NCBI RefSeq assembly: GCF_014652235.1
Contig: NZ_BMYK01000004.1
Location: 413,776-477,775, forward strand
Source of the DNA: Pseudorhodoferax aquiterrae
Lineage (GTDB): Bacteria > Pseudomonadota > Gammaproteobacteria > Burkholderiales > Burkholderiaceae_C
DNA length: 64,000 nucleotides
Direction: 5' to 3'
Positions 16,051 through 33,766 of this stretch are shown here, piece after piece (within the stretch, counting starts at the first letter, position 1; each line of letters begins with the position of its first letter). The notes beneath the pieces were generated by a model. It made no database searches and was not told the origin of the DNA. It worked only from the letters and a program-made list of their open reading frames with translations. Both the position numbers and the translations under genes were made by a program.

Positions 16051-16087
16051 TAATATGGAAACTAATTCCACATGGAAACTATTTCTA
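16051..16087 (+). promoter_or_regulatory. Pair of IclR-type boxes and -10-like TAATAT before the PQQ dehydrogenase
   Basis: Box 1, TGGAAACTAATTCCA, is at 16056-16070 and box 2, TGGAAACTATTTCTA, at 16073-16087, starting 17 bp apart. Both fit the IclR-family consensus TGGAAATNATTTCCA known from Escherichia coli, box 2 with a relaxed right arm. A TATA-like TAATAT (16051-16056) abuts box 1, so binding there would cover the transcription start. The whole gap 15934-16185 holds this element and nothing else I can name. Confidence 0.65.
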
Positions 16088-16185
16088 AATCTCGTGGCGC
16101 GCATTTCCGCGCGCCCCGGGAAACGGCGCCCCTGCGCAGGCGCGCCGTGCCGACCGCCCATTTCCACAACCACCGGAGACCTCGC

Positions 16186-18231
16186 ATGCGCCTTGCGCTC
16201 ATCCCTTCCCTGATCATGACGCTGGGCGTCCTGGCGGCCGCGCCGCCGGCCCTGGCCGAGCCCGCCAGCCAGTCTCCCGGCTGCTGCACGGCCACCACGC
16301 GCGACGTGGAGAAGGTCGGCGGCAACCTGGGCAACCAGAACTACTCGGCGCTGCGCCAGATCAACAAGTCCAACGTCCGGCAGCTCGGCGCCATCTGGCT
16401 CAACGAGATCGAGGGCGGCATCACCACCGGCACCAACCAGAGCACGACCATCGTCAAGGACGGCGTGATCTACATCGAGTCGGCGCTGGGCCGGCTGCAT
16501 GCGGTCGACGGCGTGACGGGCCAGACCAAGTGGGTCTACCCCGGCAAGGGCACGATCACGCGGCGCGGCCCGGCCATCGGCCAGGGCATGGTGTTCACCA
16601 TCGCCACCGGCAACACCGTGGTGGCGCTGAACAAGGACACCGGCCAGGTCGTCTGGGAAAAGCAGATCAACGGCTATGGCAACGTGGCCAAGGTCGGCGT
16701 GGTCTACCACGACGGCATGCTCTACCTGGGCACCAACGACGGCACGCGCGGCGCCGCCCTGGCCGTGGACGCGGGCACCGGCGAGCTCAAGTGGTACTTC
16801 TTCGGCATCCCCGGCCCGGGCGAGTTCGGCTACGACACCTGGGGCGGCGGCCCGCAGAGCGGCGCCACGCCCTGGATCCACCCGGCCGTGGACCCGGAGC
16901 TGAACCTCGTCTACTGGACCTTCGGCAACGCGCGCGGCGGTTCCTCGCAGGACGGCTCGCAGCGGCCCGGCCAGAACCTGTTCGCCAATTCCATCGTCGC
17001 CACGGACGCCAAGACCGGCGCCTACAGGTGGCACTTCCAGTCCGTGCACCATGACATCTGGGACATGGACAACGTCAACGCGCCCGTGCTGGCGGACGTG
17101 ACCGTCAAGGGCAAGCCGCGCAAGGCCTTGATCTACGGCAGCAAGACGGCCATGTGGTACATCCTGGACCGCACCGACGGCACGCCGCTGGTCGGCATCG
17201 ACGAGAAGCCCGTGCCGCAGGACGCGCGCCAGAACACCTGGCCCACGCAGCCCTATCCGCGCGGCGACGCCTGGATGCCGCTGTGCGTGACCGACAGCGG
17301 CCCGGCCCGCGCCGTGCCCAACTTCAAGCGCGGCTGCCTGTACTCGGCGCACTGGGACGAGCCCGTGCTGTCCATCCCCGGCCAGGGCGGCGGCGGCGAC
17401 TGGAGCCATGTCTCCTTCAGCCACAGCACCAAGCTCGTCTACACGGGCTTCGGCTACGTGAGCTCGGCCCACTCGCTGACCGAGGCCAGCAACGGCCTGC
17501 GTCCGCTGGGCACGGAGATGACGGGCGGCATCGTGGCCATCGACCCGGCCACCAACAAGATCCGCTGGAAGAAGGACATGCCGTACTCGCTGGCCCACGG
17601 CAACGGCATCCTGACCACGGCCGCCGACCTGCTGTTCATCGGCCAGCCCGATGGCAACCTGCTCGGCATGGACGCGCTGAACGGCCGCGAGCTGTGGCGT
17701 TTCCAGACCGGTGCGGCGATCAGCGCCAGCCCCATCACCTACGAGGTCAACGGCGAGCAGTACATGGCCATCTATGCCGGCGGCACCGGCATTCCCTACG
17801 GTGATTCGGCCCAGCGCGGCGACCACCTGTGGGCCTTCAAGATCGGCGGCACCGTGCCACAGGCGGCCGAGCCGACCAAGCCCGTCATCCGCCGTCCCAT
17901 CAGCGCCGCGGCGGTCGAGGGCAGCGTCGTCAACAACACCGTCACGCTGGCACGGCAGTGGAGCGGCGGCCAGGTCGGCGCGGCCGAAGCCGGCGGCGTG
18001 AACGCGATGGCACCGCAGCACCTGCGTGTGCCGGTGGGCACCACGGTGACCTTCCTGAATCCGGCCACCAACACCAAGCAGCACTGCGCCACGCAGTTCT
18101 TCGAAGGCTTGTTCAATGCCGGCCCGCTGGCACCGGGCCAGGCCTTCCAGTACACGTTCAGCGAACGCGGCGAGTACTTCTACAACGACTGCACCGACCC
18201 GCGCTCGACCGGCAAGGTCGTCGTGTACTGA
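16186..18231 (+). CDS. Secreted PQQ-type dehydrogenase with C-terminal cupredoxin-like domain
   Basis: Predicted 681-residue exported protein with signal peptide LIPSLIMTLGVLAAAPPALA. Residues about 30-560 form the eight-bladed propeller of PQQ dehydrogenases: GGNLGNQNYSALRQIN at the start, VHHDIWDMD (residues 287-294; the D-x-W-D block of PQQ enzymes), ALIYGSKTAMWYILDRTDG, and a closing DHLWAFKIGG. It looks closer to the glucose/quinate type than to methanol dehydrogenase, and the vicinal cysteine pair of the latter is absent from its usual place; a CC occurs instead near the mature N-terminus. Residues about 570-681 resemble a cupredoxin, with His633 and Cys669, but the His and Met expected after the Cys are Pro672 and Lys677, so type 1 copper binding is doubtful. 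No cytochrome c motif is present. Substrate unknown; quinate-like compounds are a contextual guess. Confidence 0.82.
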   Translation: MRLALIPSLIMTLGVLAAAPPALAEPASQSPGCCTATTRDVEKVGGNLGNQNYSALRQINKSNVRQLGAIWLNEIEGGITTGTNQSTTIVKDGVIYIESALGRLHAVDGVTGQTKWVYPGKGTITRRGPAIGQGMVFTIATGNTVVALNKDTGQVVWEKQINGYGNVAKVGVVYHDGMLYLGTNDGTRGAALAVDAGTGELKWYFFGIPGPGEFGYDTWGGGPQSGATPWIHPAVDPELNLVYWTFGNARGGSSQDGSQRPGQNLFANSIVATDAKTGAYRWHFQSVHHDIWDMDNVNAPVLADVTVKGKPRKALIYGSKTAMWYILDRTDGTPLVGIDEKPVPQDARQNTWPTQPYPRGDAWMPLCVTDSGPARAVPNFKRGCLYSAHWDEPVLSIPGQGGGGDWSHVSFSHSTKLVYTGFGYVSSAHSLTEASNGLRPLGTEMTGGIVAIDPATNKIRWKKDMPYSLAHGNGILTTAADLLFIGQPDGNLLGMDALNGRELWRFQTGAAISASPITYEVNGEQYMAIYAGGTGIPYGDSAQRGDHLWAFKIGGTVPQAAEPTKPVIRRPISAAAVEGSVVNNTVTLARQWSGGQVGAAEAGGVNAMAPQHLRVPVGTTVTFLNPATNTKQHCATQFFEGLFNAGPLAPGQAFQYTFSERGEYFYNDCTDPRSTGKVVVY

Positions 18232-18241
18232 CAGCTCCCAC

Positions 18242-18269
18242 GGCCTCGCCGCCGTACGGCGGCGGGGCC
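18242..18269. terminator. Long GC-rich hairpin between PQQ dehydrogenase and PEP-CTERM genes
   Basis: The core CGCCGCCGTACGGCGGCG (18247-18264) is a perfect palindrome and the stem extends outward as GGCC/GGCC across one T-G wobble. No T-run follows, so it may reduce rather than stop read-through, or protect the upstream mRNA end. Confidence 0.55.
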
Positions 18270-18297
18270 ATCTTCCCGATCCCACCGGAGACATGAC

Positions 18298-19065
18298 TTG
18301 AACCACCGCATCACCTCGTTCGGCCTGGCCCTGGCCCTCACGCTCGGCGCGGCCGCCAGCCAGGCCGCCGTCGCCCGCTTCGACACCACCAGCTTCAGCT
18401 ACAGCGTCTCCAGCGGCGCGCTGAACTGGTCCACCGCCGACCAGTACCAGCGCCTGGACACCGAAGCCGCATCCGGCGGCGGCGCGCTGGGCTACGACAG
18501 CGCGTCCAACGACTGGAGCAGCTGGGCCAGCCAGGCCCTGGCGGCCTCCAGCCCCTACGCCGGCGCCTCGGCGGCCACGGCGGGCCAGACCCTGCAGGGC
18601 AACGCCCAGGCCACCCGCACGAACCTGCTGCCCATCGACGTGCCCGCACACACCAGCCGCGCCTATGCCAACCAGGCCGGCGTGTTCAGCCTGACCGAGG
18701 ACGGCACCGTCACCTTCACGATCGGCTGGCGCATCGAAGTGCAGGGCGATGCGTCCGATCCGCTGGCCGACTACGGCCATGCGCTGATGGCGCTGATGGC
18801 GGGGGCCTACGACGGCAGCACCGGCACCTCGCTGAACGAGGAGTTGTTCTCGTTCGACGCGGTGAGCGGCCTGGCCGTGGCCAGCGGCACCTGGGTCTTC
18901 GATGTCACGCTGGCGGCCGGCCAGCTCGGCTATTACGACCTGACCGGCACGGCCAGTGCCGAGGCCAGCGCCCAGGGCGCGGCCGAGGTGCCCGAACCCG
19001 CCAGCCTGGCACTGTTCGGCGCTGGCTTGGCGGCGCTGCTCGGCCTGCGCCGCCGCCGCGGCTGA
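18298..19065 (+). CDS. PEP-CTERM surface/secreted protein 1
   Basis: Predicted 255-residue exported protein. It has a signal peptide (SFGLALALTLGAAASQA), a Ser/Ala/Thr-rich body, and the full PEP-CTERM sorting signal at the C-terminus: VPEPAS, a hydrophobic helix LALFGAGLAALLGL and a basic RRRR tail, recognised by an exosortase for processing during export. Start choice: TTG 18298, placed 7 bp after CCGGAG. An ATG five bases upstream (18293) is out of frame and reads only ATG-ACT-TGA, so it is not the start. It follows the PQQ gene by 66 bp with a hairpin between. Confidence 0.85.
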   Translation: MNHRITSFGLALALTLGAAASQAAVARFDTTSFSYSVSSGALNWSTADQYQRLDTEAASGGGALGYDSASNDWSSWASQALAASSPYAGASAATAGQTLQGNAQATRTNLLPIDVPAHTSRAYANQAGVFSLTEDGTVTFTIGWRIEVQGDASDPLADYGHALMALMAGAYDGSTGTSLNEELFSFDAVSGLAVASGTWVFDVTLAAGQLGYYDLTGTASAEASAQGAAEVPEPASLALFGAGLAALLGLRRRRG

Positions 19066-19071
19066 AGTGCA

Positions 19072-19135: not shown

Positions 19136-19140
19136 GTGCT

Positions 19141-19683
19141 TCAGGCCTGGGGGCGGCGGGCGCGGCGCGACCAGCCCAGGCCGGCCAGACCGGCCAGCAG
19201 CAGGGCGGCGCTCGCAGGCTCGGGCACGTCGTTGACCAGGGTCAGCGTCAGGCTGCCCAGGTTCACGTAGCCGTCGTACTCCTTGCTGATCGACAGGTTC
19301 AGCGCACCGTCCTGCAGCAAGGCCAGCTCGGCGCCCGTGAAGGTGTAACTGAAGGCCGTGGGCGGGCTGACCTCGCTGTTGGTCGCGCAGTCGTCCCACA
19401 GCGAGCAGTAGGCCACCTCTACGCCGTCGCCGTAGACGAAGACCTCGGTGGTCGTGCTGGAGAACCCATTGCCGAATGTGCCGCTCAGCGTGGCCGACAC
19501 GATATTGCCCTGGGACGAGAAATTGAATTGGCCCACATTCAGAGCCAAAGGCCAGGAACTCCAGACACTGTCACCGGTGCTGAAATCGGCCAGGGTGCTC
19601 GTGACCACACCAGCCTGCGCCATGGCGGCGCATGCCGCCAGCAATGCCGCCGCGGCGGACTTTTTCATTCTGGAAAAACGCAT
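19141..19683 (-). CDS. PEP-CTERM surface/secreted protein 2
   Basis: Predicted 180-residue exported protein: signal peptide MKKSAAAALLAACAAMAQA, a beta-rich body with two cysteines (CSLWDDC), and a C-terminal PEP-CTERM signal with VPEPAS, a hydrophobic stretch AALLLAGLAGLGW and a basic RRARR tail. ATG 19683 is chosen because GGAG precedes it by 6 bp; ATG 19668 directly before KKSAAA is the alternative. The gene is divergent from the ThuA-like pair across a 325-bp gap holding two IclR-type boxes, so it is probably in the same regulon. Confidence 0.83.
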   Translation of the reverse strand: MRFSRMKKSAAAALLAACAAMAQAGVVTSTLADFSTGDSVWSSWPLALNVGQFNFSSQGNIVSATLSGTFGNGFSSTTTEVFVYGDGVEVAYCSLWDDCATNSEVSPPTAFSYTFTGAELALLQDGALNLSISKEYDGYVNLGSLTLTLVNDVPEPASAALLLAGLAGLGWSRRARRPQA

Positions 19684-20008
19684 AAACACTCCAATCCGTT
19701 GAATCGAGGGCGCCCCCGCAGCCCCAACCGACTGTCGGGACACAAAAAAATGGCGGCATGCGAGTCTAGCGAGTCGATGTGGAAGATGTTTCCATGTTTC
19801 CCCTCTTGACGTTCATGTGCTTTTGCAACAGGATTGGAAAACTATTCCACATGCTTTGATTCCCTGAAATCAGGCGAATAACGAAAGGGGGAGACATATT
19901 CAACCAGTCCCAATGCGCAGCACCTGAGCGCCCAGCCCGGTGCTGAAGATTCGCCGATCCGAAAAAGGCGCAGCTTCGTTTTCTCATTTCTCCTGAAGGA
20001 TTAACTCC
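19684..20008. promoter_or_regulatory. Divergent promoter region with two IclR-type boxes (19780-19794, 19835-19849)
   Basis: TGGAAGATGTTTCCA (19780-19794) and TGGAAAACTATTCCA (19835-19849) both show perfect TGGAA/TTCCA arms around five bases. Between them, TTGACG (19806-19811) and CAGGAT (19829-19834) are spaced 17 bp like a sigma-70 promoter reading toward the ThuA-like genes; the second box follows its -10 directly. The region is less GC-rich than its surroundings, as expected for a promoter. The rest, about 19850-19990, has no ORF or repeat I can support. Confidence 0.65.
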
Positions 20009-20986
20009 ATGCATCGAAAAATCGATGGCAGTGGCGGCCGCCGCATGCGCGCCTGCGCACTGGCGCTGGCCGGCGCGGGCCTGTCGTCCGCGGCCCTGGC
20101 GCAGATGGGGGCGCCCGCGCCGGGCAGCCTCGACACCCAGTACAACGCCTGCCGCGGCACCAATCCCAACTGCTACAACGACTGGGGCGCGTTCGCCAAC
20201 ACGCCCAACAAGGTGCTGATCTACTCGCGCACGGCCGGCCCGCGCCATGCCAACCTGGGACCGGCGCTGGCCCCCGGTCTGAACCCGCCGCTGGTGGCGG
20301 CCAACGCCGTGCAGAACGGGCTGATCCGCCTGCTGGCCGCCGAAGGCATCCAGGCCGACTGGACCGAGGACGTGGCCCGCATGACCAGCCTGAACGGCTA
20401 CAAGGCCATCATCTTCGCCAGCCCCACGCGCGATGCGCTCTGGGACCACGCCAAGAGCGCCGCCGGCGGCACGCAACTGGACGCGGCGCGCCACGCGCTG
20501 CGCCAATACATGCGCCGCGGCGGCGGCTTCGTGGGCATCCACAACGCCTTCGGCACCGAATACAACTGGCCCTACTACGAAGGCCTGCTGGGCAACGCGA
20601 ACTTCTACGACCACGGCGCCAACCAGAACGGCACCGTGCGCGTGGTCAACAAGAAGGACAGCTCCACGGAGATGCTGCCGGCCAGCTTCGCGTTCAAGGA
20701 CGAGTGGTACACGCTGATGCCGTACCCGACCAACGTGAAGTTCCTGATGGTGGTGGACACCAACTCGCTGGCCACCAAGCGCAGCACGCACCCGGGCCAC
20801 GGCAAGTTCCATCCCGTGTCCTGGTGCCAGTACTACGACGGCGGCCGCTCCTGGGTAACCACGCTGGGCCACGACGCCGGCGCGTTCGCGCAGGACACCT
20901 CCACCTTCCCTGGCGCTGCGGAATTCCAGAAGCACATCGTGGCCGGCATCAAGTCGGCCATGGGCCTGGTGCCCTTCTGCAAATGA
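20009..20986 (+). CDS. Secreted ThuA-like domain protein A
   Basis: Predicted 325-residue exported protein with a ThuA-like (class I glutamine-amidotransferase-like) fold. Signal peptide: a basic start, then ACALALAGAGLSSAALAQ. The mature N-terminus has a two-cysteine segment CRGTNPNCYNDWGAF. The fold then begins with KVLIYSRTAGPRHANL and includes GYKAIIFASPTRDALW and MRRGGGFVGIHNAFGTEY, the block where other ThuA proteins place a conserved HxA/F. The late HPVSWCQYYDGGRSWVTTLGHD block is also typical. ThuA relatives act on sugars or polysaccharides, but no reaction is proven for secreted ones. AAGGA precedes ATG 20009. A very similar copy follows 44 bp downstream. Confidence 0.82.
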   Translation: MHRKIDGSGGRRMRACALALAGAGLSSAALAQMGAPAPGSLDTQYNACRGTNPNCYNDWGAFANTPNKVLIYSRTAGPRHANLGPALAPGLNPPLVAANAVQNGLIRLLAAEGIQADWTEDVARMTSLNGYKAIIFASPTRDALWDHAKSAAGGTQLDAARHALRQYMRRGGGFVGIHNAFGTEYNWPYYEGLLGNANFYDHGANQNGTVRVVNKKDSSTEMLPASFAFKDEWYTLMPYPTNVKFLMVVDTNSLATKRSTHPGHGKFHPVSWCQYYDGGRSWVTTLGHDAGAFAQDTSTFPGAAEFQKHIVAGIKSAMGLVPFCK

Positions 20987-21030: not shown

Positions 21031-21981
21031 ATGTCCCGTACCACCCGCGCCCTCGGCGCCGCCGCCGCCCTGTTCCTGGCCGGCTTCGCACAGGCCCAGA
21101 CCGGCGCGCCCGCACCCGGCAGCCTGGACCCCTACTACAAGGTCTGCCGCGGCACCAACCCCAATTGCTACAACGACTGGGGCGCCTTCGCCAGCACGCC
21201 CAACAAGGTGCTGATCTACTCGCGCACGGCCGGCCCGCGCCATGCCAACCTGGGGCCGGCGCTGGCCCCCGGCCTGAACCCGCCGCTGGCGCCCGCCAAC
21301 GTCGTGCAGAACGCCCTCGTGCGCCTGCTGGCCGCCGAAGGCATCCAGGCCGACTGGACCGAGGACGTGGCCCGCATGACCAGCCTGAACGGCTACAAGG
21401 CCGTCATCTTCGCCAGCCCCACGCGCGACGCGCTGTGGGACCACGCCAAGACCGCGGCCGGCGGCACGCAACTGGATGCGGCGCGCCATGCGCTGCGCCA
21501 GTACATGCGCCGCGGCGGCGGCTTCGTGGGCATCCACAACGCCTTCGGCACCGAATACAACTGGCCTTACTACGAGGGCCTGCTGGGCAATGCCAACTTC
21601 TACGACCACGGCGCCAACCAGAACGGCACCGTGCAGGTGGTCAACAAGAACGACGCTTCGACCGAGATGCTGCCCGACAGCTTCGGCTTCAAGGACGAGT
21701 GGTACACGCTGGTGCCGTTTCCGACCAACGTGAAGTTCCTGCTGACGGTGGACACCAACTCGCTGGCCACCAAGCGCGGCACGCACCCCGGCCATGGCAA
21801 CTTCCATCCCGTGTCCTGGTGCCAGTACTACGACGGCGGCCGTTCGTGGGTGACCACGCTGGGCCACGACGGCGCGGCCTTCGCCGAGGACACCTCGGCC
21901 TTCCCGGGCGCGGCCGAGTTCCAGAAGCACATCGTGGCCGGCATCAAGTCGGCCATGGGCCTGGTGCCGTTCTGCCGTTGA
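21031..21981 (+). CDS. Secreted ThuA-like domain protein B (tandem duplicate of A)
   Basis: Predicted 316-residue exported protein. By eye it differs from protein A at about 30 of some 290 aligned mature residues, while the signal peptides (here TTRALGAAAALFLAGFAQAQ) are unrelated, as usual after tandem duplication. All ThuA-like blocks are kept, including the Cys pair CRGTNPNCYNDW and the C-terminal cysteine LVPFC. Differences include Lys to Asn and Arg to Gln changes near the NQNGTVQVVNKN loop, which might alter ligand contact. AAGGAA precedes the ATG. The ELWxxDGT gene starts 2 bp after its stop, so the three are one operon. Confidence 0.82.
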   Translation: MSRTTRALGAAAALFLAGFAQAQTGAPAPGSLDPYYKVCRGTNPNCYNDWGAFASTPNKVLIYSRTAGPRHANLGPALAPGLNPPLAPANVVQNALVRLLAAEGIQADWTEDVARMTSLNGYKAVIFASPTRDALWDHAKTAAGGTQLDAARHALRQYMRRGGGFVGIHNAFGTEYNWPYYEGLLGNANFYDHGANQNGTVQVVNKNDASTEMLPDSFGFKDEWYTLVPFPTNVKFLLTVDTNSLATKRGTHPGHGNFHPVSWCQYYDGGRSWVTTLGHDGAAFAEDTSAFPGAAEFQKHIVAGIKSAMGLVPFCR

Positions 21982-21983
21982 GC

Positions 21984-23429
21984 ATGGCGGTGCGGGCTTC
22001 CCTCTGGTGCCGTCGGCTCGCCGCGCTGGCGGCGGGCGCCGCCGTGCTGCATGCCGCGGCGCAGGCCGGGCCGGCGCTGCACCATCCGGGCGGCATGGCC
22101 ACGCTGCCCGATGGCACGCTGCTGCTGGCCGCCGATGCCGGCGACGGGCATGGCACGGAGCTGTGGGCCGTCGATGCCCGTGACGGCAGTCGCCGCCTCG
22201 TGCGCGACATCCGGCCGGGGCCGCTGGGCGCGCACCCGAGCGGGCTCACGCTGTGGCGCGGCCAGGCCTACTTCGCGGCCGACGACGGCCAGCACGGCCT
22301 GGAACTGTGGCGCAGCGACGGCACCGAGGCCGGCACCACGCGTGTGGCCGATCTGCGGCCGGGCCCGGAGGGCTCGCTGCCCAACGGCTTCGTGGCCTTC
22401 GGCGACGCGCTGTACTTCTCCGCCGACGATGGGCGCCACGGCTTCGAACTGTGGCGCACCCAGGGCACGGCCGAGACCACCAGCCTGGTGGCCGACATCC
22501 ATCCCGGCGCGCCGGGCGGGTTGCCGCGCCAGCTCACGGTGCTGGGCGGCGCCCTGCTGTTCAGCGCCAGCGACGCCGAGGGCGGCACCGAACTGTGGCG
22601 CAGCGACGGCACGGCCGCCGGCACCCGGCGCGTGCGGGACATCCGGGCCGACGGCGATGCCAACCCCGAGCAGCTCACGCGCGTGGGCGACACGCTGTTC
22701 TTCACGGCCGACGACGGCCGCCACGGCCGCGAGCTCTGGCGCAGCGACGGCACGGCCGCCGGTACGCAACTGGTGCGCGACATCCGGCCCGGCCGCGACA
22801 GCGCGCAGCCGCGCCACCTGGTGCAGGCCGGCCGCTGGCTCTGGTTCGCCGCCGACGACGGCCGCCACGGCATCGAGCTGTGGCGCAGCGATGGCAGCGC
22901 CGAGGGCACGGCGCTGGTGGCCGACATCCGGCCCGGTCCGGCCAATGCGCTGCCCAGCCACCTCACTGCGCTGGGCGAGCAGGTGGTGTTCGCGGCCTAC
23001 GACGGCGTGCACGGCGTGGAGCCCTGGATCAGCGACGGCACGGTGGCCGGCACGCGGCTGCTGGCCGACATCCACGCCGGCCCCGGCCATTCCAACGCCT
23101 GGGCCTTCACGCGGCTGGGCGAGCGCATCGTGTTCGCCGCCGACGACGGCCGCCTGGGCATGGAGGTCTGGCAGACACGCGGTGCACCGGGCGACGCGCA
23201 ACTGCTGCGCGACGAGCGTGCCGGCGCGGCCGGTGCCTTCCCGCGCGGCTTCGTCGCGGTGGACGGGCGCCTCGCCTTCGTGGCCGAGGCGGCCGACGGC
23301 GCGACCTACCTCGCGCTCGACGGCGTGCCGGCGCGGAACTGCGGCAGCGCCGACAGCGGCACGGTGGGCAAGGCGCCGGGCGCGGCCGGCTGCGTGGCCT
23401 CGGCGCCGTCCTCCTGGGCCACGCGGTAG
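21984..23429 (+). CDS. Secreted ELWxxDGT-repeat beta-propeller protein
   Basis: Predicted 481-residue exported protein with signal peptide LAALAAGAAVLHAAAQAG. The body is built of roughly 47-residue repeats, each with a variant of FxADDGxHGxELWxSDGTxxGT followed by VxDIxPG; at least eight can be counted (for example ELWRSDGTEAGTTRV, ELWRSDGTAAGTRRV, ELWRSDGSAEGTALV, EPWISDGTVAGTRLL). Such repeats form extracellular beta-propellers of unknown ligand. The ATG is 2 bp after the ThuA-B stop. The last 124 bp overlap the convergent pseudopilin gene, so the final 40 residues (after VPARNCGSADSG) could be read-through rather than conserved sequence. Confidence 0.82.
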   Translation: MAVRASLWCRRLAALAAGAAVLHAAAQAGPALHHPGGMATLPDGTLLLAADAGDGHGTELWAVDARDGSRRLVRDIRPGPLGAHPSGLTLWRGQAYFAADDGQHGLELWRSDGTEAGTTRVADLRPGPEGSLPNGFVAFGDALYFSADDGRHGFELWRTQGTAETTSLVADIHPGAPGGLPRQLTVLGGALLFSASDAEGGTELWRSDGTAAGTRRVRDIRADGDANPEQLTRVGDTLFFTADDGRHGRELWRSDGTAAGTQLVRDIRPGRDSAQPRHLVQAGRWLWFAADDGRHGIELWRSDGSAEGTALVADIRPGPANALPSHLTALGEQVVFAAYDGVHGVEPWISDGTVAGTRLLADIHAGPGHSNAWAFTRLGERIVFAADDGRLGMEVWQTRGAPGDAQLLRDERAGAAGAFPRGFVAVDGRLAFVAEAADGATYLALDGVPARNCGSADSGTVGKAPGAAGCVASAPSSWATR

Positions 23430-24985: not shown

Positions 24986-27195
24986 CGCTGCACGATCCCG
25001 ATCTGCACAGGCGGCGGCGCCTGCACCGGCAGGTTGGCGCTGGCCACGTCGAAGCCGATCTCGGCCTGCCCCGGCGCCTTGGCCAGCACGCGCAGGCGCA
25101 CCGTGGCCGGTGGTGCGGCCACGCCGGCCATGCCCGAGGAGGACAGCTCCACGCCGGCATCGCCCGCACCGCCCACGGGCGCCAGCAGGGCCGGGTCGTA
25201 GCGCAGCTGCACGCGCGCCGTGATGGCCTGGTTGCCGTCGGGCAGCGCGAGCTGCACGCTGAACTCCTCGCCGATGCCGACCTGCGCCGGCACCTGCGCG
25301 CCGAGGGCGGCCAGCGCCTCGGGCACCGGCGCGCCGGCGGCCGCGCGGCCGGCCGGCGTGGCCGTGGTGGCTGCGCCCGGCGGCGTCAGCGCCATGGCCG
25401 TGCCATCGCGAAAGCGCAGCGGCACGCGGCCCGGCACGGACTCGGTGCCCGAGGCGAACTGGCTCTCCACGGTCTCGGGCCGGCGCACGTTGCGCAGCAC
25501 GCGCGGCGTGACCAGCAGCACGATCTCGGTCTTGGCCACGGTCTGGTCGTTGTTGCGGAACAGCCGGCCCAGCACCGGCAGCTCGGCCGCGCCGGGCAGC
25601 TTGGCCATGCTCTGGCGGTCCTCGTTGTTGATGAGGCCGGCCAGCACCTGGGTCTCGCCGTCGCGCAGGCGCAGCGTGGTGGTGGCGTTGCGCGTGCCCA
25701 GCCGGTAGGCCACCGTGCCCGAGATGTTGAGCTGCGAGAGGATGTTGGAGACCTCCAGCTGCACCTTGATGGCGACCTCGTCCTCCAGGTAGACGTTGGG
25801 CTCCACGTCCAGCTTCAGTCCCGTCTCCAGGTAGCTCACGGCCGAGGACACGCCCACGTTGGCGGTGGAGGTGGTGGTGATCACGGGCACCTTCTCGCCG
25901 ATGTGGACCTTGGCCTTCTCGCGGTTGCGCACGCGGATGCGCGGGTTGGCCAGCAGGTTGGCGCCGCCGTCGGTCTGGCGCAGGTTCAGGATCAGGAGCG
26001 GGTTGGCGGTGTAGGCGCGCAGGCCGCCGCTGCCCAGCTGCACCAGGCCGTCCGAGGTCGTGCCGCCGGTACCAGGGATGCGGCCGACGATCTGCTCCGG
26101 AAAGCGCAGGCCGATCTCCTGCGCCACGCTGGAGGCGATTTCCAGCACCTCCAGCTCCAGCATGACCTCGGGCTCGCCCAGGTCCTGCGTGGCCACCAGT
26201 TGCTCGGCCAGGCGGATGGCCTCGGGCGTGTCGCGCATGATCACGAGGTTGAGCCGCTCGTCCACGAACAGGTCGCGCGTCTTGACCAGCGCGCGGATCA
26301 TCGCGGCGGTCTGCTTGGCGTCGGCATTGGCGAGGTAGAAGCTGCGCATCACGAGCTCCTGGTACTCGCGCTGCTTGGCCTGGGTGTTGGGGTAGACGAT
26401 CAGCGTGTTGTCGTTGAGCAGTTTGCGCTCGAGCTGGTTGGTCTGCAGCAGCACGCCCAGCACGTCCGCCAGGCTGGTGTCGCGCACGAAGATGGTGGTG
26501 CGCTGGTCGCCCTTGATGTCCTTGTCGAGCACGAAGTTGAGCCCGCCGTGGTTGGACAGGATCTCGAAGATCGTGGCCAGCGGCACGTCGCGCAGCTCCA
26601 GCGTGAGGCGCCGCGCCATGGCCTGGCGCAGTTGCGGCTCCTTCTGTTCCAGCAGCCGGCGGCGCTCGGCCACGCTGCGCACCACGGCCTCGGCGCCGCG
26701 CTGGCGCGAGTTGCGCGCGAGCACGCTGCGGGCGATGCGGTCGGCGCCGTCCAGGTCGCCCGCGGCCAGCAGGCGCTCGGCCTCGGCCACGGACAGACGG
26801 TGCGCGCGGTCGGCCTGCACGGCCTGGATGCCGCCCTGCGCCACCACCGAGGCCGGGTCCATGCGCAGCGCACTGCGGTAGCGGTCCTCGGCCACGTCCA
26901 GCAGGCCGGCCGCGCGGGCGGCGTCGCCGTCGCGCAGGTAGACGCCGGCCACCGCGTCGCGCTGCAGCATGTAGGCGTTGTAGGCGCTGGGGTCCAGCGG
27001 CGGCGTGCGGGCGGCGCGTTCCAGCTGCGCCAGGCCCGCCTCCACCTGGCCGGCCGCGATGAGTTGCTGCGCCGACTGCACGGAGGCCTCGCGCGGCGAG
27101 GCACAGGCCGCCAGCAGCGCCAGCACCACCAGGGCGGGCCAGCGCCAGTGCGGCGGGAAGGCGTGCGCGCGGCGGGCGCGGTGTGGCGATGTCAC
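24982..27195 (-). CDS. gspD: Outer-membrane secretin (GspD/PilQ/MshL-like) with cohesin-like C-terminal domain
   Basis: Forms the outer-membrane channel of the secretion/pilus system. The 737-residue lipoprotein has lipobox LLAACAS, a TPR-like N-terminal region at about residues 40-170, secretin N domains (LTLELRDVPLATIFEILSNH and NLVIMRDTPEAIRLAEQLV) and the secretin core with VPVITTTSTANVG, GLKLDVEPNVYLEDEVAIKV and the final TEIVLLVTPRVLRN. After a Pro/Ala linker, residues about 640-737 resemble a cohesin-type beta domain (VQLRYDPALLAPVGGAG, LRVLAKAPGQAEIGFDVAS), as in several secretins of MSHA-like systems. It overlaps the next gene by 4 bp. Confidence 0.9.
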   Translation of the reverse strand: MTSPHRARRAHAFPPHWRWPALVVLALLAACASPREASVQSAQQLIAAGQVEAGLAQLERAARTPPLDPSAYNAYMLQRDAVAGVYLRDGDAARAAGLLDVAEDRYRSALRMDPASVVAQGGIQAVQADRAHRLSVAEAERLLAAGDLDGADRIARSVLARNSRQRGAEAVVRSVAERRRLLEQKEPQLRQAMARRLTLELRDVPLATIFEILSNHGGLNFVLDKDIKGDQRTTIFVRDTSLADVLGVLLQTNQLERKLLNDNTLIVYPNTQAKQREYQELVMRSFYLANADAKQTAAMIRALVKTRDLFVDERLNLVIMRDTPEAIRLAEQLVATQDLGEPEVMLELEVLEIASSVAQEIGLRFPEQIVGRIPGTGGTTSDGLVQLGSGGLRAYTANPLLILNLRQTDGGANLLANPRIRVRNREKAKVHIGEKVPVITTTSTANVGVSSAVSYLETGLKLDVEPNVYLEDEVAIKVQLEVSNILSQLNISGTVAYRLGTRNATTTLRLRDGETQVLAGLINNEDRQSMAKLPGAAELPVLGRLFRNNDQTVAKTEIVLLVTPRVLRNVRRPETVESQFASGTESVPGRVPLRFRDGTAMALTPPGAATTATPAGRAAAGAPVPEALAALGAQVPAQVGIGEEFSVQLALPDGNQAITARVQLRYDPALLAPVGGAGDAGVELSSSGMAGVAAPPATVRLRVLAKAPGQAEIGFDVASANLPVQAPPPVQIGIVQR

Positions 27196-28777: not shown

Positions 28778-28778
28778 C

Positions 28779-29561
28779 TCAAATGTCTTGCGCGCTCAGC
28801 GCAAGGTGCTCGGCCTGCCACCCGGGAAGGTCGGGCGACGTGACCGGCCCCGCCGCTGCCAGGCCCTGCCAGGCCACGTGCACCAGCGGCTGCTCGGCGG
28901 GCTCCAGGCCCTCCAGCAGCGCGCAGCGCGCGAGCCAGGGCGCCAGCGCGGCCTGGCCCTGCACGGCATCGAAGGGCAGGCTGCGCAGGCTCTGCCAGCC
29001 CTGCGCCGGATCGATGCGCGCCAGCAGCGCGCCGTCGACCTCGGTCACCAGCAGCCAGGCCGCGCGGCCGGCCAGGCGCGGCCAGGCGTGGGCGGCCGCC
29101 AGCGCCAGCAGCGGGCGCACGGACACGGCATGCAGGCCGGCCTGCAATGCCTGCTGCCGCAGGCGCGCGAGCCAGCCCGCATCGAGCGCAGCGGCGGGCA
29201 TGCCGGCACCGGCGGCAGCGTCCACGGCCAGGTCCCAGCCCTCGACCGCGTCGCCATGCACGCCGCGCAGCAGTTCGCGCGCGGCCACGCGGCGTTCGGT
29301 CCCGCCACGCAGCGCACGGCCGTCGGGCAACAGCGCCATGTGGACCAGGCGGTTGGACACCACGATGCGCGCCCGCGCGCGGCGCGGCGCGGCCTGGGCC
29401 GCCACGGCGCCCAGCGCCAGCAGCAGCGCATCGGCGCCGTCCGCAGCCACGGCGTGCCGGTGCTGCTGCGGCGCCTGCCAGCCGCGCCGGCGCAGCACCA
29501 GCCCCACCTGCGAAGGTGCCAGCCAGACGGCGGCCTGCTCACGCCACGGCAGTCGTGACAC
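28779..29561 (-). CDS. PilM/GspL cytoplasmic-domain-like protein
   Basis: Predicted 260-residue soluble protein rich in Ala/Leu, resembling the actin-like cytoplasmic part of GspL or PilM that binds the secretion ATPase (VVSNRLVHMALLPDG, LAVDAAAGAGMPAAALDAGW, WLLVTEVDGALLARIDPAQG). Start GTG 29561 lies inside the end of gspE, giving a 23-bp overlap. The call depends mainly on order between gspE and the PilN-like gene. Confidence 0.6.
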   Translation of the reverse strand: MSRLPWREQAAVWLAPSQVGLVLRRRGWQAPQQHRHAVAADGADALLLALGAVAAQAAPRRARARIVVSNRLVHMALLPDGRALRGGTERRVAARELLRGVHGDAVEGWDLAVDAAAGAGMPAAALDAGWLARLRQQALQAGLHAVSVRPLLALAAAHAWPRLAGRAAWLLVTEVDGALLARIDPAQGWQSLRSLPFDAVQGQAALAPWLARCALLEGLEPAEQPLVHVAWQGLAAAGPVTSPDLPGWQAEHLALSAQDI

Positions 29562-31221
29562 GTTGCACCTCCTCCAGGCTGGTCGCGCCTGCGCGCAACA
29601 GGTCCAGCGCGGCCTCGCGCAGCAGCCGCGTGCCGTTGCGGCGCGCGGTGTCCTTGAGCACACGCACGGGCTGGCGCGTGATGATGAGCTCGGCCAGTTC
29701 GTCCGTCATCACGAGGATCTCGGCGATGGCCACGCGGCCCAGGTAGCCGGTGGCGCGGCACTGGCCGCAGCCGCGTCCGGCCATGAAGTGCACGGCCGAG
29801 AGGTCCGCGCCGGCCAGGCCGGCATCGGCCAGCGCTTCCGCGCCCGGCTGCACCGGCACGCTGCAGTGCGGGCAATTGCGCCGCACCAGCCGCTGCGCCA
29901 CGATGCCGTTCAGCGCGGCCGTGAAGCTGTAGGCGTCGATGCCCATGTGTGCGAAGCGGCCCAGCACGTCGAAAACGTTGTTGGCGTGCACGGTGGTGAA
30001 CACCAGGTGGCCCGTCAGCGCGGCCTGGATCGCGATCTGCGCGGTCTCCGCGTCGCGGATCTCGCCCACCATCACGCGGTCGGGGTCGTGCCGCAGGATG
30101 GAGCGCAGGCCGCGCGCGAAGGTCAGGCCCTTCTTCTCGTTGACGGGGATCTGCAGCACGCCGGGCAGCTGGTACTCCACCGGGTCCTCGATGGTCACGA
30201 TCTTCTCGTGGCCGTGGTGGATCTCCGAGATCGCGGCGTACAGCGTGGTGGTCTTGCCGCTGCCGGTGGGGCCGGTCACGAGCAGCATGCCGTGCGGCTC
30301 GCCGGCCAGGCGGCGGATGGTGCGGCGCTCCGGCGCACCGAAGCCCAGACTGTCCAGCGTGAGGCCGCGCGCGGCGTCGGCCAGCTGCTGCTTGTCCAGG
30401 ATGCGCAGCACCGCGTCCTCGCCGAAGATGGACGGCATGATGGACACCCGCAGATCGATCTCGCGGCCGCGCACGGCCACCGTGAAGCGCCCGTCCTGCG
30501 GGATGCGGCGCTCGGCGATGTCCAGCTGCGCCATCACCTTGATGCGCGAGATCACCTGCTCGGCCAGTTCCTGGCCCGCGTCGCTGCGCACGGCCACCAG
30601 CACGCCGTCGATGCGGTACTTGATGGCCAGGCCGCCGGCGCCGGTTTCCAGGTGGATGTCCGAGGCATTGGCCTTGAGCGCGTCGTACAGCGTGGAGCGC
30701 ACCAGGCGCACCACGGCGCTGCTGCCCTCGGCGATGCTCTGGAACGAGAGGTCCTCGGCCTCGCTGCCGGCGCTGGCGCTGGCGCCCCCGGCGATCTGCA
30801 ACTGCTCCAGCGCCGAGAGGCCTTCCTCGTGCCGCGCCAGCCAGGCCGCGATGTCGCCACCGTGCGCGAGCACCCAGCGCGCCGGCTGACCCAGCGCCTG
30901 CTCGGCCCGTGCGCAGCGCTGGTCGTCGAAGGGGTCGCCCAGCACGAGCTGCAGCGCGCCATCGCCATCGCGCAGCGCCAGCATCTGCAGCGCGTGGCAG
31001 GCAGCGAAGGGCAGGGCGTCGAAGGCCGGTTGCCAGGCGTGCAGGTCGGCGATGCGCGCCAGCGGGTAGTGCAGGCTTTGCGCGAGCCGCGCGGTGAAGC
31101 GCTCGGGCGCGTCGCCGGACAGTTCTTCCAGCATGCGCACGACCGGGGCGCCGCGTTCGTTGGCCAGCCGGCGCGCCTGGGCGATGGCGCGCGCCGTGAA
31201 GGAGGGCAGGGCCGCGTTCAT
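29539..31221 (-). CDS. gspE: Type II secretion/type IV pilus assembly ATPase GspE/PilB
   Basis: Hexameric ATPase that powers pseudopilus assembly. The 560 residues include an N-terminal N1E-like region, then Walker A VTGPTGSGKTTTLYAA, the Asp box VTIEDPVEYQL, Walker B with RHDPDRVMVGEIRD, the His box TTVHANNVFDVLGR, and a zinc-binding tetracysteine site (CPHC and CGQC). All catalytic motifs are intact. Start ATG 31221 overlaps the gspF stop by 4 bp. Confidence 0.95.
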   Translation of the reverse strand: MNAALPSFTARAIAQARRLANERGAPVVRMLEELSGDAPERFTARLAQSLHYPLARIADLHAWQPAFDALPFAACHALQMLALRDGDGALQLVLGDPFDDQRCARAEQALGQPARWVLAHGGDIAAWLARHEEGLSALEQLQIAGGASASAGSEAEDLSFQSIAEGSSAVVRLVRSTLYDALKANASDIHLETGAGGLAIKYRIDGVLVAVRSDAGQELAEQVISRIKVMAQLDIAERRIPQDGRFTVAVRGREIDLRVSIMPSIFGEDAVLRILDKQQLADAARGLTLDSLGFGAPERRTIRRLAGEPHGMLLVTGPTGSGKTTTLYAAISEIHHGHEKIVTIEDPVEYQLPGVLQIPVNEKKGLTFARGLRSILRHDPDRVMVGEIRDAETAQIAIQAALTGHLVFTTVHANNVFDVLGRFAHMGIDAYSFTAALNGIVAQRLVRRNCPHCSVPVQPGAEALADAGLAGADLSAVHFMAGRGCGQCRATGYLGRVAIAEILVMTDELAELIITRQPVRVLKDTARRNGTRLLREAALDLLRAGATSLEEVQRVTTAVA

Positions 31222-32420
31222 CCCAGGCTTCCGGCCAGCTCGAAGATCGGCAGGTACATCAGGATCACGATGGCGCCGATGACCACGCCGATCACGGCCA
31301 TCAGCACGGGCTCGAACAGCTTGGTGAACCATTCGATCCAGCGCGCGAGCTCCTCGTCGTGGAAGCCGGCGATGCGCTCCATCATGGCCGCCATGTCGCC
31401 GCTGTTCTCGCCCACGCGCAGCATGCGCGTGGCCACGGGCGTGGTCAGGCCCGCGGCGGCCATGGCGTCGGACAGCACGATGCCCTCGCGCACCTGCTGC
31501 GTCGCGTGCACCAGGCCCTGGCGCATGTGCAGCGGCAGCAGGTCTGCGACCATGGCCAGGGCCGGCACGATGGGCGTGCCGCCGCGCAGCAGCATGCCCA
31601 GCGAGCGGTAAAAGCGCGCCAGATGGTAGGTGGCCAGCCGCGTGCCGATGGCCGGGATGCGCGTGAGCAGCGCGACGCCACGCGGCAGCAGCCGGCGCGC
31701 GCTGGCGGCGGCCAGCACCGCGAGCACGAGCAGCGCGGCGCCGATGGCCGCGCCATGCGCCTGCACGCCCTGGCCCCAGCGCAGCAGCAGCATCGACATC
31801 CAGGGCAGGTCGGGGCCCGATTCGGCGTAGATGCCGGAAAAGCGCGGCACCACGTAGCCGAGCAGGAACAGCACCACGAGGCCGCCCAGCGCCAGCAGCG
31901 CGACCGGGTAGATCGAGGCCGACACCACCTTCTTGCGCACCAGGTCCAGCCGCTCGTGGTAGTCCACATAGCGGGCCAGCGACTCGACCAGGTCGCCGCT
32001 GCGCTCGGAGGCCTGCACCGTGGTCACGTACAGCGGCGGGAAGGCCTGGGGCAGCGCGGCCAGCACGCGCGAGAAGGACTGGCCTTCGAACAGCCGGGCG
32101 CGCATCGCGGCCAGCACGGGGCGCACGTCGCTGCGCGTTTCCTTCTCCAGCAGCGTGTCCAGCGTCTCGGGCAAGGAGAGGCCGGCCTGCAGCAGGGCCA
32201 TGAGCTCCAGCGTGAACTGCAGCAGCGGAAAGCGCGGCCTGCGCTGCAGGCGCAGCGAGGGCAGGCCGGGCCGGGCGAACAGGGCGCGCCGGGGCGCGGC
32301 CGACAGCACGGCCAGGCCCTGGGCGCGGGCGCGCTGCGTGGCCGTGGCCAGGTCGTCGGCCTCGACCGCCAGCCGCACCACGCCTTCGCCCGGGCGGAAG
32401 CCGCGCACATCGAACTGCAT
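31218..32420 (-). CDS. gspF: Type II secretion inner-membrane platform protein GspF
   Basis: Polytopic platform that contacts GspE and the pseudopilus. The 400 residues show two T2SSF domains: FTLELMALLQAGLSLPETLD in the first and FYRSLGMLLRGGTPIVPALA in the second, each followed by paired membrane helices, ending with LMAVIGVVIGAIVILMYLPI. Length is normal. ATG 32420 is 14 bp after the gspG stop. Confidence 0.94.
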   Translation of the reverse strand: MQFDVRGFRPGEGVVRLAVEADDLATATQRARAQGLAVLSAAPRRALFARPGLPSLRLQRRPRFPLLQFTLELMALLQAGLSLPETLDTLLEKETRSDVRPVLAAMRARLFEGQSFSRVLAALPQAFPPLYVTTVQASERSGDLVESLARYVDYHERLDLVRKKVVSASIYPVALLALGGLVVLFLLGYVVPRFSGIYAESGPDLPWMSMLLLRWGQGVQAHGAAIGAALLVLAVLAAASARRLLPRGVALLTRIPAIGTRLATYHLARFYRSLGMLLRGGTPIVPALAMVADLLPLHMRQGLVHATQQVREGIVLSDAMAAAGLTTPVATRMLRVGENSGDMAAMMERIAGFHDEELARWIEWFTKLFEPVLMAVIGVVIGAIVILMYLPIFELAGSLG

Positions 32421-32434
32421 CGCGTGGGGCTCCT

Positions 32435-32851
32435 CTACCAGCTGGTCACGTCCGCCGCGTCGCCGCTGCCGCCGGCCTGGCCGTCCTTGCCCAGCGAGTA
32501 CAGGTCGAACTCGCCGTGCTGGCCGGGCGACTTGTAGAGGTAGGGCCGGCCCCAGGGATCGGGCGGCACGCCTTTTTGCAGGTAGGGGCCGTCCCAGCGG
32601 GCCACGCCGGTGGGGCGCGCGGTCAGCGCGGCCAGGCCCTGCTCGTCGCTGGGGTACTGGCCCACGTCGAGCCGGTAGGTGTTGAGCGCGCTGGTCAGCG
32701 CGGCGATCTGCGCCTGCGCGGCGCGCACCTCGGACTTGCCGACCTGCGAGAAGTAGCGCGGCGCCACGTAGGCGGCCAGGAGGCCGATGATGACCATGAC
32801 GACGAGCAGCTCGAGCAACGTGAAGCCGCGGGGCCGGCGGTGGGCGGGCAT
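32435..32851 (-). CDS. gspG: Major pseudopilin GspG
   Basis: Main pseudopilus subunit, 138 residues. A short leader ends in RPRG, then FTLLELLVVMVIIGLLAAYV with Glu at mature position 5, APRYFSQVGKSEVRAAQAQI, and the calcium-site C-terminus (YPSDEQGLAALTARPTGVAR, DPWGRPYLYKSPGQHGEFDL, YSLGKDGQAGGSGDAADVTSW), the conserved GspG ending. It is the first gene of the secretion operon and starts 53 bp after the iclR2 stop on the same strand, with no terminator seen between. Confidence 0.95.
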   Translation of the reverse strand: MPAHRRPRGFTLLELLVVMVIIGLLAAYVAPRYFSQVGKSEVRAAQAQIAALTSALNTYRLDVGQYPSDEQGLAALTARPTGVARWDGPYLQKGVPPDPWGRPYLYKSPGQHGEFDLYSLGKDGQAGGSGDAADVTSW

Positions 32852-32904
32852 GGGGTTGGGTCTCCAGGTGGTGCGGCCTGCGGTGCCGCGCAGGGGCAGC
32901 GCGC

Positions 32905-33699
32905 TCACCGCGCTGCTCCCGGGCGGCGCGCAAGGATGGGCGAGGCGGCCGTGGCCAGCGCCAATTCCTCGGCCGCGGCCAGCAGCGGCGCGGCCAGTTC
33001 CTCCATGCGCCGCGCGTCCAGGCGGATGGACGGCCCGGCGATGGTGATCACGCCCGTGGCCGCCTCGCCGCGCCGGCGCACCGGCGCGGCCATGGCGCTC
33101 ATGCCGGGCGCATACATCTCGTGCATCTGCGAGACGCCGCGCACGCGGTCCTGCGCCAGCAGGTCGACCACGGCCTTCCAGCCGGTCGGCGCGTGCGGCC
33201 CGTAGTCGCGCGGCTCGCCGAAACCCTGGCGGACGATGAGTTCCAGCGCGCGCTCCTCGGACAGCGTCATGAGCCAGGCGTGGCCGGCCGCGCTGCACGA
33301 CAGACGCACGTCGATGCCCATGTCGGGGTCGTAGCGCAGGCCGAAGCGCGCGCCCTGGGCCTTGGCCACGAAGGTCAGCCGGTCGCCGTCGACGATGGCC
33401 AGGCGCACGAGTTCGCCGCTGGTCTCGGCGAGCCGGTCGATGATGGGCTGGGCCAGCTCGACAATGCCCGAGCCGCCCAGGTAGGACAGGCCCAGCGCCG
33501 CCAGCTTGGTGGTCAATGCGTAATCGCCATGCTCGCGTGTCTGGCGCACGTAGCCGCAGCGCACCAGGTCGCTGAGCAGGCGGTGGCAGGCCGACAGCGG
33601 CAGCGCCAGCTCCTCGGCCATGGTCGACAGGGTCTTGCCTGTCGGGCGCATGGCCAGGTATTCCAGGATGGTCAGGGAACGTTCCAGCGTGCTTGCCAT
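32905..33699 (-). CDS. IclR-family transcriptional regulator 2
   Basis: Predicted 264-residue paralog of the regulator at 15130. Winged helix LERSLTILEYLAMRPTGKTL and LPLSACHRLLSDLVRCGYV; effector domain with DGDRLTFVAKAQG, CSAAGHAWLMTLSEER and GVITIAGPSIRLD. Residues in the recognition helix are nearly the same in both, so they probably bind the same box. It is divergent from the second TRAP module and upstream of the secretion operon, so read-through would make it the first gene of that operon. Confidence 0.9.
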   Translation of the reverse strand: MASTLERSLTILEYLAMRPTGKTLSTMAEELALPLSACHRLLSDLVRCGYVRQTREHGDYALTTKLAALGLSYLGGSGIVELAQPIIDRLAETSGELVRLAIVDGDRLTFVAKAQGARFGLRYDPDMGIDVRLSCSAAGHAWLMTLSEERALELIVRQGFGEPRDYGPHAPTGWKAVVDLLAQDRVRGVSQMHEMYAPGMSAMAAPVRRRGEAATGVITIAGPSIRLDARRMEELAAPLLAAAEELALATAASPILARRPGAAR

Positions 33700-33733
33700 G
33701 CGCCGGATTGTTGTTCGGAAGCGCCTTCTTGTT

Positions 33734-33766
33734 TGGAAGGGTTTTCCTTAATGGAAAAGATTTCCT
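33734..33766 (+). promoter_or_regulatory. Pair of IclR-type boxes between iclR2 and the second TRAP operon
   Basis: TGGAAGGGTTTTCCT (33734-33748) and TGGAAAAGATTTCCT (33752-33766) start 18 bp apart in the 117-bp divergent promoter region, similar to the 17-bp spacing before the PQQ gene. A half-matching third element with CGGAA lies just upstream. Both directions (iclR2 plus gsp genes, and dctP) could be controlled here. Confidence 0.65.

Follow-up and report, generated by a model that had tools for sequence, protein, structure and literature searches.

A 64,000-nucleotide stretch of the Pseudorhodoferax aquiterrae genome (contig NZ_BMYK01000004.1, positions 413,776 to 477,775; hereafter the window) carries a cluster of genes coding for a putative pyrroloquinoline quinone (PQQ)-type dehydrogenase, ThuA-fold proteins, a type II secretion system (T2SS), a tripartite ATP-independent periplasmic (TRAP) transporter with an AroQ-type dehydratase, and two IclR-family regulators, together with three pairs of 15-bp palindromic boxes (Table 1). 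Each pair lies between divergent genes: iclR1 and the quinoprotein gene, a PEP-CTERM gene and thuA1, and iclR2 and dctP. The genes thuA1, thuA2 and the ELWxxDGT gene are consecutive on the plus strand. The gene gspG, located 53 bp downstream of iclR2, is followed on the same strand by gspF, gspE, a PilN-type gene, the secretin gene and pseudopilin genes, and dctP, aroQ2, dctQ and dctM run divergently from iclR2. That these genes form one predicted regulon with six boxes at three promoters is well supported by the sequence comparisons presented below.

Table 1. Features of the locus, with positions in the window and the basis of each assignment.
Feature	Position	Strand	Basis
iclR1, IclR-family regulator, PQQ side	15130..15933	-	HTH_IclR and IclR_C above Pfam cut-offs in a longer open reading frame; translation
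Box 1, exact TGGAA-N5-TTCCA	16056..16070		TGGAAACTAATTCCA
Box 2, relaxed right arm TTCTA	16073..16087		TGGAAACTATTTCTA
Quinoprotein-type dehydrogenase, signal peptide, C-terminal cupredoxin-like domain	16186..18231	+	PF01011; PDB matches to quinoprotein alcohol dehydrogenases and 5fc9; alignment
PEP-CTERM secreted protein 1	18298..19065	+	PF07589
PEP-CTERM secreted protein 2, divergent from ThuA1	19141..19683	-	PF07589
Box 3, exact	19780..19794		TGGAAGATGTTTCCA
Box 4, exact	19835..19849		TGGAAAACTATTCCA
ThuA1, exported ThuA-fold protein	20009..20986	+	PF06283; structure model and fold match
ThuA2, tandem copy of ThuA1	21031..21981	+	PF06283 in a longer open reading frame; 90% identical 300-nt repeat; start from comparison of relatives
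ELWxxDGT repeat protein, 8 repeats	21984..23429	+	TIGR04534, 8 stretches; 8 copies at 141-144 nt
Last T2SS-operon gene, pseudopilin-like by eye	23306..23869	-	no Pfam match; conserved with the operon
Pseudopilin	23866..24426	-	N_methyl PF07963
Pseudopilin	24428..24985	-	N_methyl PF07963
Secretin (GspD-like)	24982..27195	-	PF00263
Two small T2SS-operon genes	27195-27782; 27786-28268	-	first, no match; second, T2SSM_b below cut-off
PilN-like gene	28265-28777	-	PF05137
Gene without family match in the T2SS operon	28779-29663	-	none found
GspE-like ATPase	29539..31221	-	PF00437; start from comparison of relatives
GspF-like protein, start approximate	31218..32420	-	PF00482
GspG-like major pseudopilin	32435..32851	-	PF08334
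iclR2, first gene of the iclR2-T2SS run	32905..33699	-	HTH_IclR and IclR_C above Pfam cut-offs
Degenerate third TRAP-side box	33716..33730		CGGAAGCGCCTTCTT
Box 5, right arm TTCCT	33734..33748		TGGAAGGGTTTTCCT
Box 6, right arm TTCCT	33752..33766		TGGAAAAGATTTCCT
DctP, TRAP solute-binding protein	33817..34833	+	PF03480; nearest structures 4p47, 7bbr
AroQ2, type II 3-dehydroquinate dehydratase family	34862..35308	+	PF01220; NF003807
DctQ	35313..35843	+	PF04290
DctM	36078..37358	+	PF06808

The initial annotation of this DNA had proposed six sites of the form TGGAA-N5-TTCC(A/T), and a scan of the window located all six at the positions claimed, including box 2 with its relaxed right arm. The spacing of 17 or 18 bp announced for two of the pairs was confirmed (17 bp for 16056/16073 and 18 bp for 33734/33752), and the third pair (19780/19835) is spaced by 55 bp. 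The degenerate third box on the TRAP side stands exactly 18 bp before 33734. With up to one mismatch allowed, TGGAA-N5-TTCCA matches the window seven times, whereas 100 shuffles average 0.33 matches and reach 2 at most. The sites had been said to occur only in promoter gaps, which holds for the six named ones but not for the seventh near match, at 26130 inside the secretin gene. A one-mismatch box is found in the secretin gene of both the window (26130) and a related locus (L064, 4033), probably as a result of coding conservation.

Genome-wide (7,114,383 bases in 94 contigs), there are three exact sites, all three in the window; about 1.1 per genome would be expected from composition at the GC content of the window. 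Matches with at most one mismatch number 67, compared to 35 for the reversed-pattern control, and six of the 67 fall within the 694 bp of the three gaps, where 0.007 would be expected (binomial P about 1e-16, a value that assumes uniform placement and ignores the greater AT-richness of promoters). By the window shuffles, the genome-wide reversed control and the enrichment in the gaps, the sites do not occur at the random frequency that had been named as fatal to the regulon. No second box locus emerged among 14 places picked by eye, mostly for AT-rich spacers, from the 43 listed of the 60 one-mismatch places outside the window. On rough gene calls, 11 of the 14 fall within genes, including three at a potential start; of the others, one follows a gene at 81 bp, one precedes a gene by 111 bp and one stands without a called gene nearby. 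A genome-wide tandem search that allowed three mismatches at 18-bp spacing (one hit for the control) turned up nothing beyond the TRAP gap and a single weak place on contig C31.

The boxes recur in related bacteria, whose genomes are designated here by G and loci by L. The tandem pattern was found at 12 places in 9 of 200 genomes of the family, own genome counted, with 0 control hits. Ten of these 12 fall in gaps upstream of IclR genes of the same clade, and the other two are between the 3′ end of iclR and the ThuA gene in G020 and before dctP in G150. When the three gaps were aligned over four genomes (the window, G069, G175 and G068), 52 of 60 box-arm positions were invariant, compared to 190 of 613 outside (by gap, 18/20, 16/20 and 18/20 versus 91/298, 61/225 and 38/90). 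Since G069 is very close to the window, most of the force of this comparison comes from G175 and G068. The degenerate TRAP-side box is also readable in G069 and G068, in the 18-bp register.

A box with at most one mismatch occurs in 31 of the 47 distinct regions preceding related IclR genes, many of them from related species and not independent, compared to 0 of 47 for the reversed pattern. Over 22 loci and 81 upstream regions, boxes precede 11 of 19 genes with their own promoter, 18 of 22 IclR genes, 15 of 18 genes divergent from IclR and 4 of 22 operon-internal genes, compared to 0 of 81 for the reversed control. This tally counts a divergent gap once for each of its genes and looks back 350 bp, thereby leaving uncounted a box 470 bp before the ThuA gene of L128. 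Operon-internal genes were assigned by a simple distance rule, and all four boxed ones have a gap of their own (dctP in L071 and L075, thuA in L074 and L109). The tally includes fragments and distant homologues (a PQQ protein at 25% in L069, split ThuA hits in L061, and the DctP of another TRAP system at 48-49%), and one of each was used for L063 and L078, which are one contig, and for L074 and L084, which apparently are as well. Tandem spacing over the mapped loci, counted by hand, is 17 or 18 bp for 13 pairs and 55 bp for 3. The same genes are arranged differently in loci of Variovorax, Xylophilus, Acidovorax and Pseudacidovorax, where boxes again stand at promoters of the set, but not at all of them. 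The boxes in relatives stand before ThuA-PQQ genes and dctP, and in Pseudacidovorax before the ELWxxDGT gene; none was found before that gene in Variovorax gossypii (L085) within one mismatch and the 350-bp look-back. Conservation upstream of orthologous genes, on which the proposed regulon had also been made to depend, is therefore seen in other species and genera, with exceptions (G174, G116, the G068 TRAP gap, Piscinibacter and others).

The two regulators had been described as near-identical proteins with almost the same recognition helix. They are instead close paralogues, with 76% identity overall and 77% over residues 1-75, and their helices, read by eye as SACHRVLTEL and SACHRLLSDL, are similar without being identical. 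Both group with the IclR proteins of G069, G175 and G068 (tree support 92/90), in keeping with a duplication inside that clade. In the other compact clusters that were mapped, one IclR of this clade was seen per locus. Neither protein falls in a named NCBIfam subfamily (PcaR/PcaU, IclR, BhcR), the three best scores being 109-126 bits against cut-offs of 285-380. The TGRAA and TTYCA arms and the 15-bp length of the group 2 operator TGRAACA-N1-2-TGTTYCA were found in 54 distinct site strings (a count in which divergent gaps are read both ways), an agreement of the arms that follows from choosing the sites at no more than one mismatch. The CA..TG around the operator centre is not found: position 6 is A in 40 of the 54, position 10 is T in 39, and positions 7-9 are mixed. 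The initial annotation had matched the sites to the known IclR consensus; their centre is AT-rich.

According to the parts compared of a survey of the family, group 2 palindromes occur as tandem sites, the regulogs are mostly small, quinate/shikimate metabolism and transport form one co-regulated COG set, tandem operators have a centre spacing of 18-22 bp in 94 groups, and its own Table 1 gives the Escherichia coli IclR operator as TGGAAATNATTTCCA (Suvorova and Gelfand 2021, PMC8222616). The boxes of the window share with these operators the arms and the tandem arrangement; they differ by the AT-rich centre and by a spacing of 17-18 bp, at or below the published range. T2SS, ThuA and ELWxxDGT proteins are unmentioned in the main-text parts of that survey that were compared. 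A second source describes the PcaU/qui-pca system of Acinetobacter baylyi, in which an IclR-family regulator acts at divergent promoters and PQQ-dependent periplasmic quinate oxidation, by the quinate dehydrogenase QuiA, which is reported to pass electrons to ubiquinone, is combined with dehydroquinate dehydratase and QuiC (PMC4213383). In that comparison, the IclR regulator on divergent promoters, the PQQ enzyme, the dehydroquinate dehydratase and QuiC are shared, whereas the quinoprotein of the window has a signal peptide and belongs to another subfamily, ThuA, TRAP and T2SS genes are present, and QuiC is without boxes. Known IclR tandem palindromes, their quinate/shikimate sets and the control of quinate use by PcaU thus make this a regulon of a known kind. 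Among the papers listed by a literature search, with subscription journals mostly outside its reach, none was on the PQQ-ThuA pair or on a T2SS in an IclR regulon.

The run downstream of iclR2 contains the secretin, GspE, GspF and GspG genes by which membership in the T2SS class was judged, and has pseudopilins as in that class. It differs by its PilN-type inner-membrane part, by the lack of a recognized GspC among the genes scanned, and by its position inside a predicted catabolic regulon. In the window, the T2SS lacks a box of its own, and it is assigned to the regulon because gspG lies so close behind iclR2 and because, in one relative (G175), an exact box precedes gspG by 82 bp. Read from the sequence, the G175 box overlaps a TTGGAA located 17 bp before TATGAT. 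Between iclR and gspG, G175 has a further gene (L060, 12725-14818) for which PqqU is by far the best family, with 811 bits, below the cut-off of 1200; this PqqU-like TonB receptor suggests that PQQ import is co-regulated in that genome. Of 200 genomes, 6 have a close secretin, with identity of 60% or above and the next value being 48%, and all 6 are among the 13 having the PQQ protein (hypergeometric P about 2e-8 by genome and 8e-6 by genus); the 60% cut was chosen once this gap had been seen, and five candidates were scored per genome for most genomes.

By sequence, the quinoprotein belongs to the PQQ propeller family of the quinoprotein and quinohemoprotein alcohol dehydrogenases 1kb0 and 6zcv, with which it keeps aligned Arg, Asn, Asp, Lys and Trp residues that we take to be catalytic. 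It differs from them by a cupredoxin-like tail. The ligands of type I copper are His, Cys, His and Met; in the tail H633 and C669 are kept, with no His soon after the Cys (from the alignment). Among 35 close homologues of the quinoprotein, 15 have a PqqB gene nearby, 17 a PqqC gene and 17 a PqqE gene, compared to 0 of 45 distant ones, and ThuA genes are near 31 of 35 compared to 0 of 45, in Burkholderiales and Actinobacteria. These counts and those given below cover the best 80 loci among the matches listed, several of the distant loci being short, with the close/distant cut placed in the gap between about 49% and 40% identity. PQQ supply genes are not linked to the cluster in the window; the genome has pqqC. 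The ThuA model (mean pLDDT, the predicted local distance difference test score, 75.7) matched uncharacterized ThuA-like structures, and these fold matches indicated no mechanism. Lipidation of the PQQ and ThuA proteins was considered as a mark of clusters without a T2SS and is kept as a lead only: the proteins of G078 and G183 look soluble, and these genomes have no secretin match at E 1e-120. No convincing lipobox was found in clusters with T2SS genes (the window, G175, G068, G174, G116 and Ramlibacter); a simple lipobox pattern flagged ILAC in the G068 ThuA, LLSC in the Ramlibacter PQQ protein and VLSC in the G078 ThuA. Lipobox-like or CGG-type starts of PQQ and ThuA proteins were observed in Variovorax, Xylophilus, Acidovorax and Pseudacidovorax types, and by locus in L071, L074, L075, L081, L082, L085, L109, L128, L222 and L224, and not in the clade of the window; L079 and L083 entered this comparison as short or truncated loci.

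The TRAP-AroQ genes had been counted as part of a single co-regulated extracellular system. Site statistics and conservation support the predicted co-regulation, but these genes code instead for an inner-membrane and cytoplasmic uptake module. One of the structures nearest to DctP, 7bbr, is presumably an Advenella sugar-acid receptor, and AroQ2 scores above the NF003807 cut-off (175 versus 130). AroQ genes are near 8 of the 35 close quinoprotein homologues and QuiC genes near 10, compared to 0 and 1 of the 45 distant ones, which favors a quinate-like substrate oxidized outside the cytoplasm. Beyond iclR1, on its upstream side, lie a cyclase-PilZ fusion gene, a short-chain dehydrogenase/reductase gene, a split QuiC pair, and aroQ1 with another TRAP set, none of them with a box within one mismatch. 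The first of these, at 14018-15133, codes for an adenylate/guanylate cyclase catalytic domain fused to PilZ, adjoins iclR1 and is kept beside the block in G069 and G175. At 11339-13197, two adjoining genes match the TIM-barrel and 4-hydroxyphenylpyruvate dioxygenase halves of QuiC separately and would constitute a split dehydroshikimate dehydratase. A thiamine pyrophosphate (TPP) enzyme and a class III coenzyme A (CoA)-transferase are common to the PQQ or PQQ-ThuA clusters found in Ramlibacter and in many Actinobacteria (L080, L095 and others).

Taken together, we give a probability of about two thirds to a local IclR regulon that would repress PQQ/ThuA oxidation, the T2SS and TRAP-AroQ uptake for use of a quinate-like substrate. 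The two paralogous IclR proteins would bind the 15-bp palindromes, paired at 17-18 or 55 bp, in the three divergent gaps, and thereby control the exported PQQ-type dehydrogenase with a PEP-CTERM protein, the second PEP-CTERM protein and the ThuA1-ThuA2-ELWxxDGT run, and iclR2 with the T2SS run and, divergently, the TRAP-AroQ operon. Repression would be steric, possibly with looping, until relieved by a metabolite of the pathway. Outside the cytoplasm, the exported quinoprotein and ThuA may oxidize a polyhydroxy-acid substrate, the acid product being imported by the TRAP transporter and dehydrated by AroQ; our best guess for the substrate is quinate or a quinate derivative, converted to 3-dehydroquinate. 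The T2SS, by which export may proceed, would have been added under the same control in this clade.

Several observations weigh against this reading. The quinoprotein scores below the cut-offs of TIGR03075 (PQQ-dependent alcohol dehydrogenase, 283 versus 480 bits) and TIGR03074 (membrane quinate/glucose dehydrogenase, 180 versus 833 bits) and lacks in the alignment the vicinal Cys-Cys of quinohemoprotein alcohol dehydrogenases; the linkage to PqqB, PqqC and PqqE and the PqqU-like gene nevertheless support real PQQ use. AroQ2 falls below the TIGR01088 equivalog cut-off (151 versus 170 bits), which AroQ1 passes, and the actinobacterial AroQ and QuiC proteins are also below cut-off. Genes for a TPP enzyme and a CoA-transferase, unneeded for a plain quinate route, are near 21 and 15 of the 35 close homologues. 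Within one mismatch, no box was found in the window at the split QuiC genes or at aroQ1 with its TRAP set, none among the genome matches listed is near pqqC, and none was found at the genes of the predicted regulon in Piscinibacter, a Rubrivivax metagenome-assembled genome and Ramlibacter, or in the TRAP-side gap of G068, where both boxes are readable at two mismatches. A strict sigma-70 scan found no promoter in the gaps, promoter placements being a reading of conserved bases. Finally, the stretches read of G174 and G116 contain most genes of the set (PQQ, PEP-CTERM, ELWxxDGT, TRAP and T2SS genes, with ThuA seen in G174 only) without this IclR, and no mapped promoter of either has a box, indicating that the association of these genes is more widespread than the boxes. 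The G174 locus L217 has three one-mismatch matches (5667, 6153 and 7782), one in a DctP homologue and two outside mapped genes; L218 has one match to the reversed control.

That the boxes are chance AT-rich palindromes is practically negligible as an explanation: promoters are AT-richer than genes and some enrichment is expected, but the reversed pattern of the same composition gave 0/47 and 0/81 in the same regions, and the box arms are more conserved than their flanks. Two or three separate autoregulated IclR loci could instead share a motif via recent paralogy, with no functional regulon and the T2SS as a passenger, as might be suspected from the adjacent boxes that each iclR gene has, the grouping of the paralogues with the G069, G175 and G068 proteins and the lack of a separate T2SS box in the window. 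We regard this as improbable, because the ThuA/PEP-CTERM gap is about 4 kb from the nearest iclR gene and has a 55-bp pair that G069 and G068 retain, because Variovorax, Xylophilus and other relatives have boxes at reordered PQQ-ThuA and TRAP-AroQ promoters, partly far from IclR, and because of the exact box at the T2SS in G175 and the co-occurrence of close secretin and PQQ protein.

The mode of regulation and the substrate leave more room for other readings. In the ThuA gap, a fully conserved TTGACG is followed after 17 bp by a weak xAxxAT and then by box 4 over the expected start, with box 3 located 55 bp further upstream; in the DctP gap, box 6 is overlapped by ATGGAA, followed after 17 bp by a conserved TAG(C/G)AT (both read by eye). 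Since the boxes would lie over the probable -35 region or after the -10, their placement favors repression over activation. The IclR proteins could alternatively be activators bound upstream of the -35 and requiring an effector, as PcaU and PobR can be, both called activators-repressors in the part compared of PMC4213383. The TRAP-side boxes do lie upstream of the conserved TAG(C/G)AT, with box 6 over the -35 position, and the degenerate third box recalls the three-box site of PcaU (PMC8222616, in part); activation is nonetheless unlikely in our view, given that box 4 after the -10 and the G175 box, which covers the -35 and the spacer before gspG, are both placed as for a repressor (by-eye readings). 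More serious, at somewhat less than even odds, is the possibility that another polyhydroxy or cyclic alcohol takes the place of quinate as the substrate, with AroQ2 acting on an analogue and the actinobacterial members using a TPP/CoA-transferase route. The TPP-enzyme and CoA-transferase homologues, mostly at 48-57% identity, point in this direction, as do the sub-cut-off score of AroQ2 beside a passing AroQ1, the QuiC genes without boxes and a separate gene of the genome (C2:3091) that passes TIGR03074 and would code for a membrane PQQ dehydrogenase of the glucose/quinate/shikimate family. Aldehyde dehydrogenase genes are near 23 of 35, but mostly near 30-34% identity and so unspecific. We know of no role for ThuA in quinate use. 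Against another substrate, most of the mapped Burkholderiales clusters that have TRAP genes include an adjacent AroQ2 homologue (G174, G116 and L081 do not), and AroQ or QuiC genes are near the Actinomadura members.

A bolder proposal, which we put forward only tentatively and consider rather doubtful, is an IclR-controlled extracellular machine in which a new subfamily of cupredoxin-tailed quinoproteins with ThuA-fold and ELWxxDGT partners would act extracellularly on a substrate of quinate type, or a larger one of plant origin, whose oxidation would precede TRAP uptake and AroQ dehydration; in this clade their own T2SS would export the enzymes, which Variovorax-type relatives would keep tethered as lipoproteins. 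If true, the PQQ-ThuA pair, common to Burkholderiales and Actinobacteria, would be an unrecognized enzyme system. The arrangement suggests a way in which a catabolic regulator can tie a secretion machine to an oxidation pathway, and would give a lead to the function of three poorly understood families that travel together: exported ThuA proteins, ELWxxDGT repeat proteins and cupredoxin-tailed quinoproteins.

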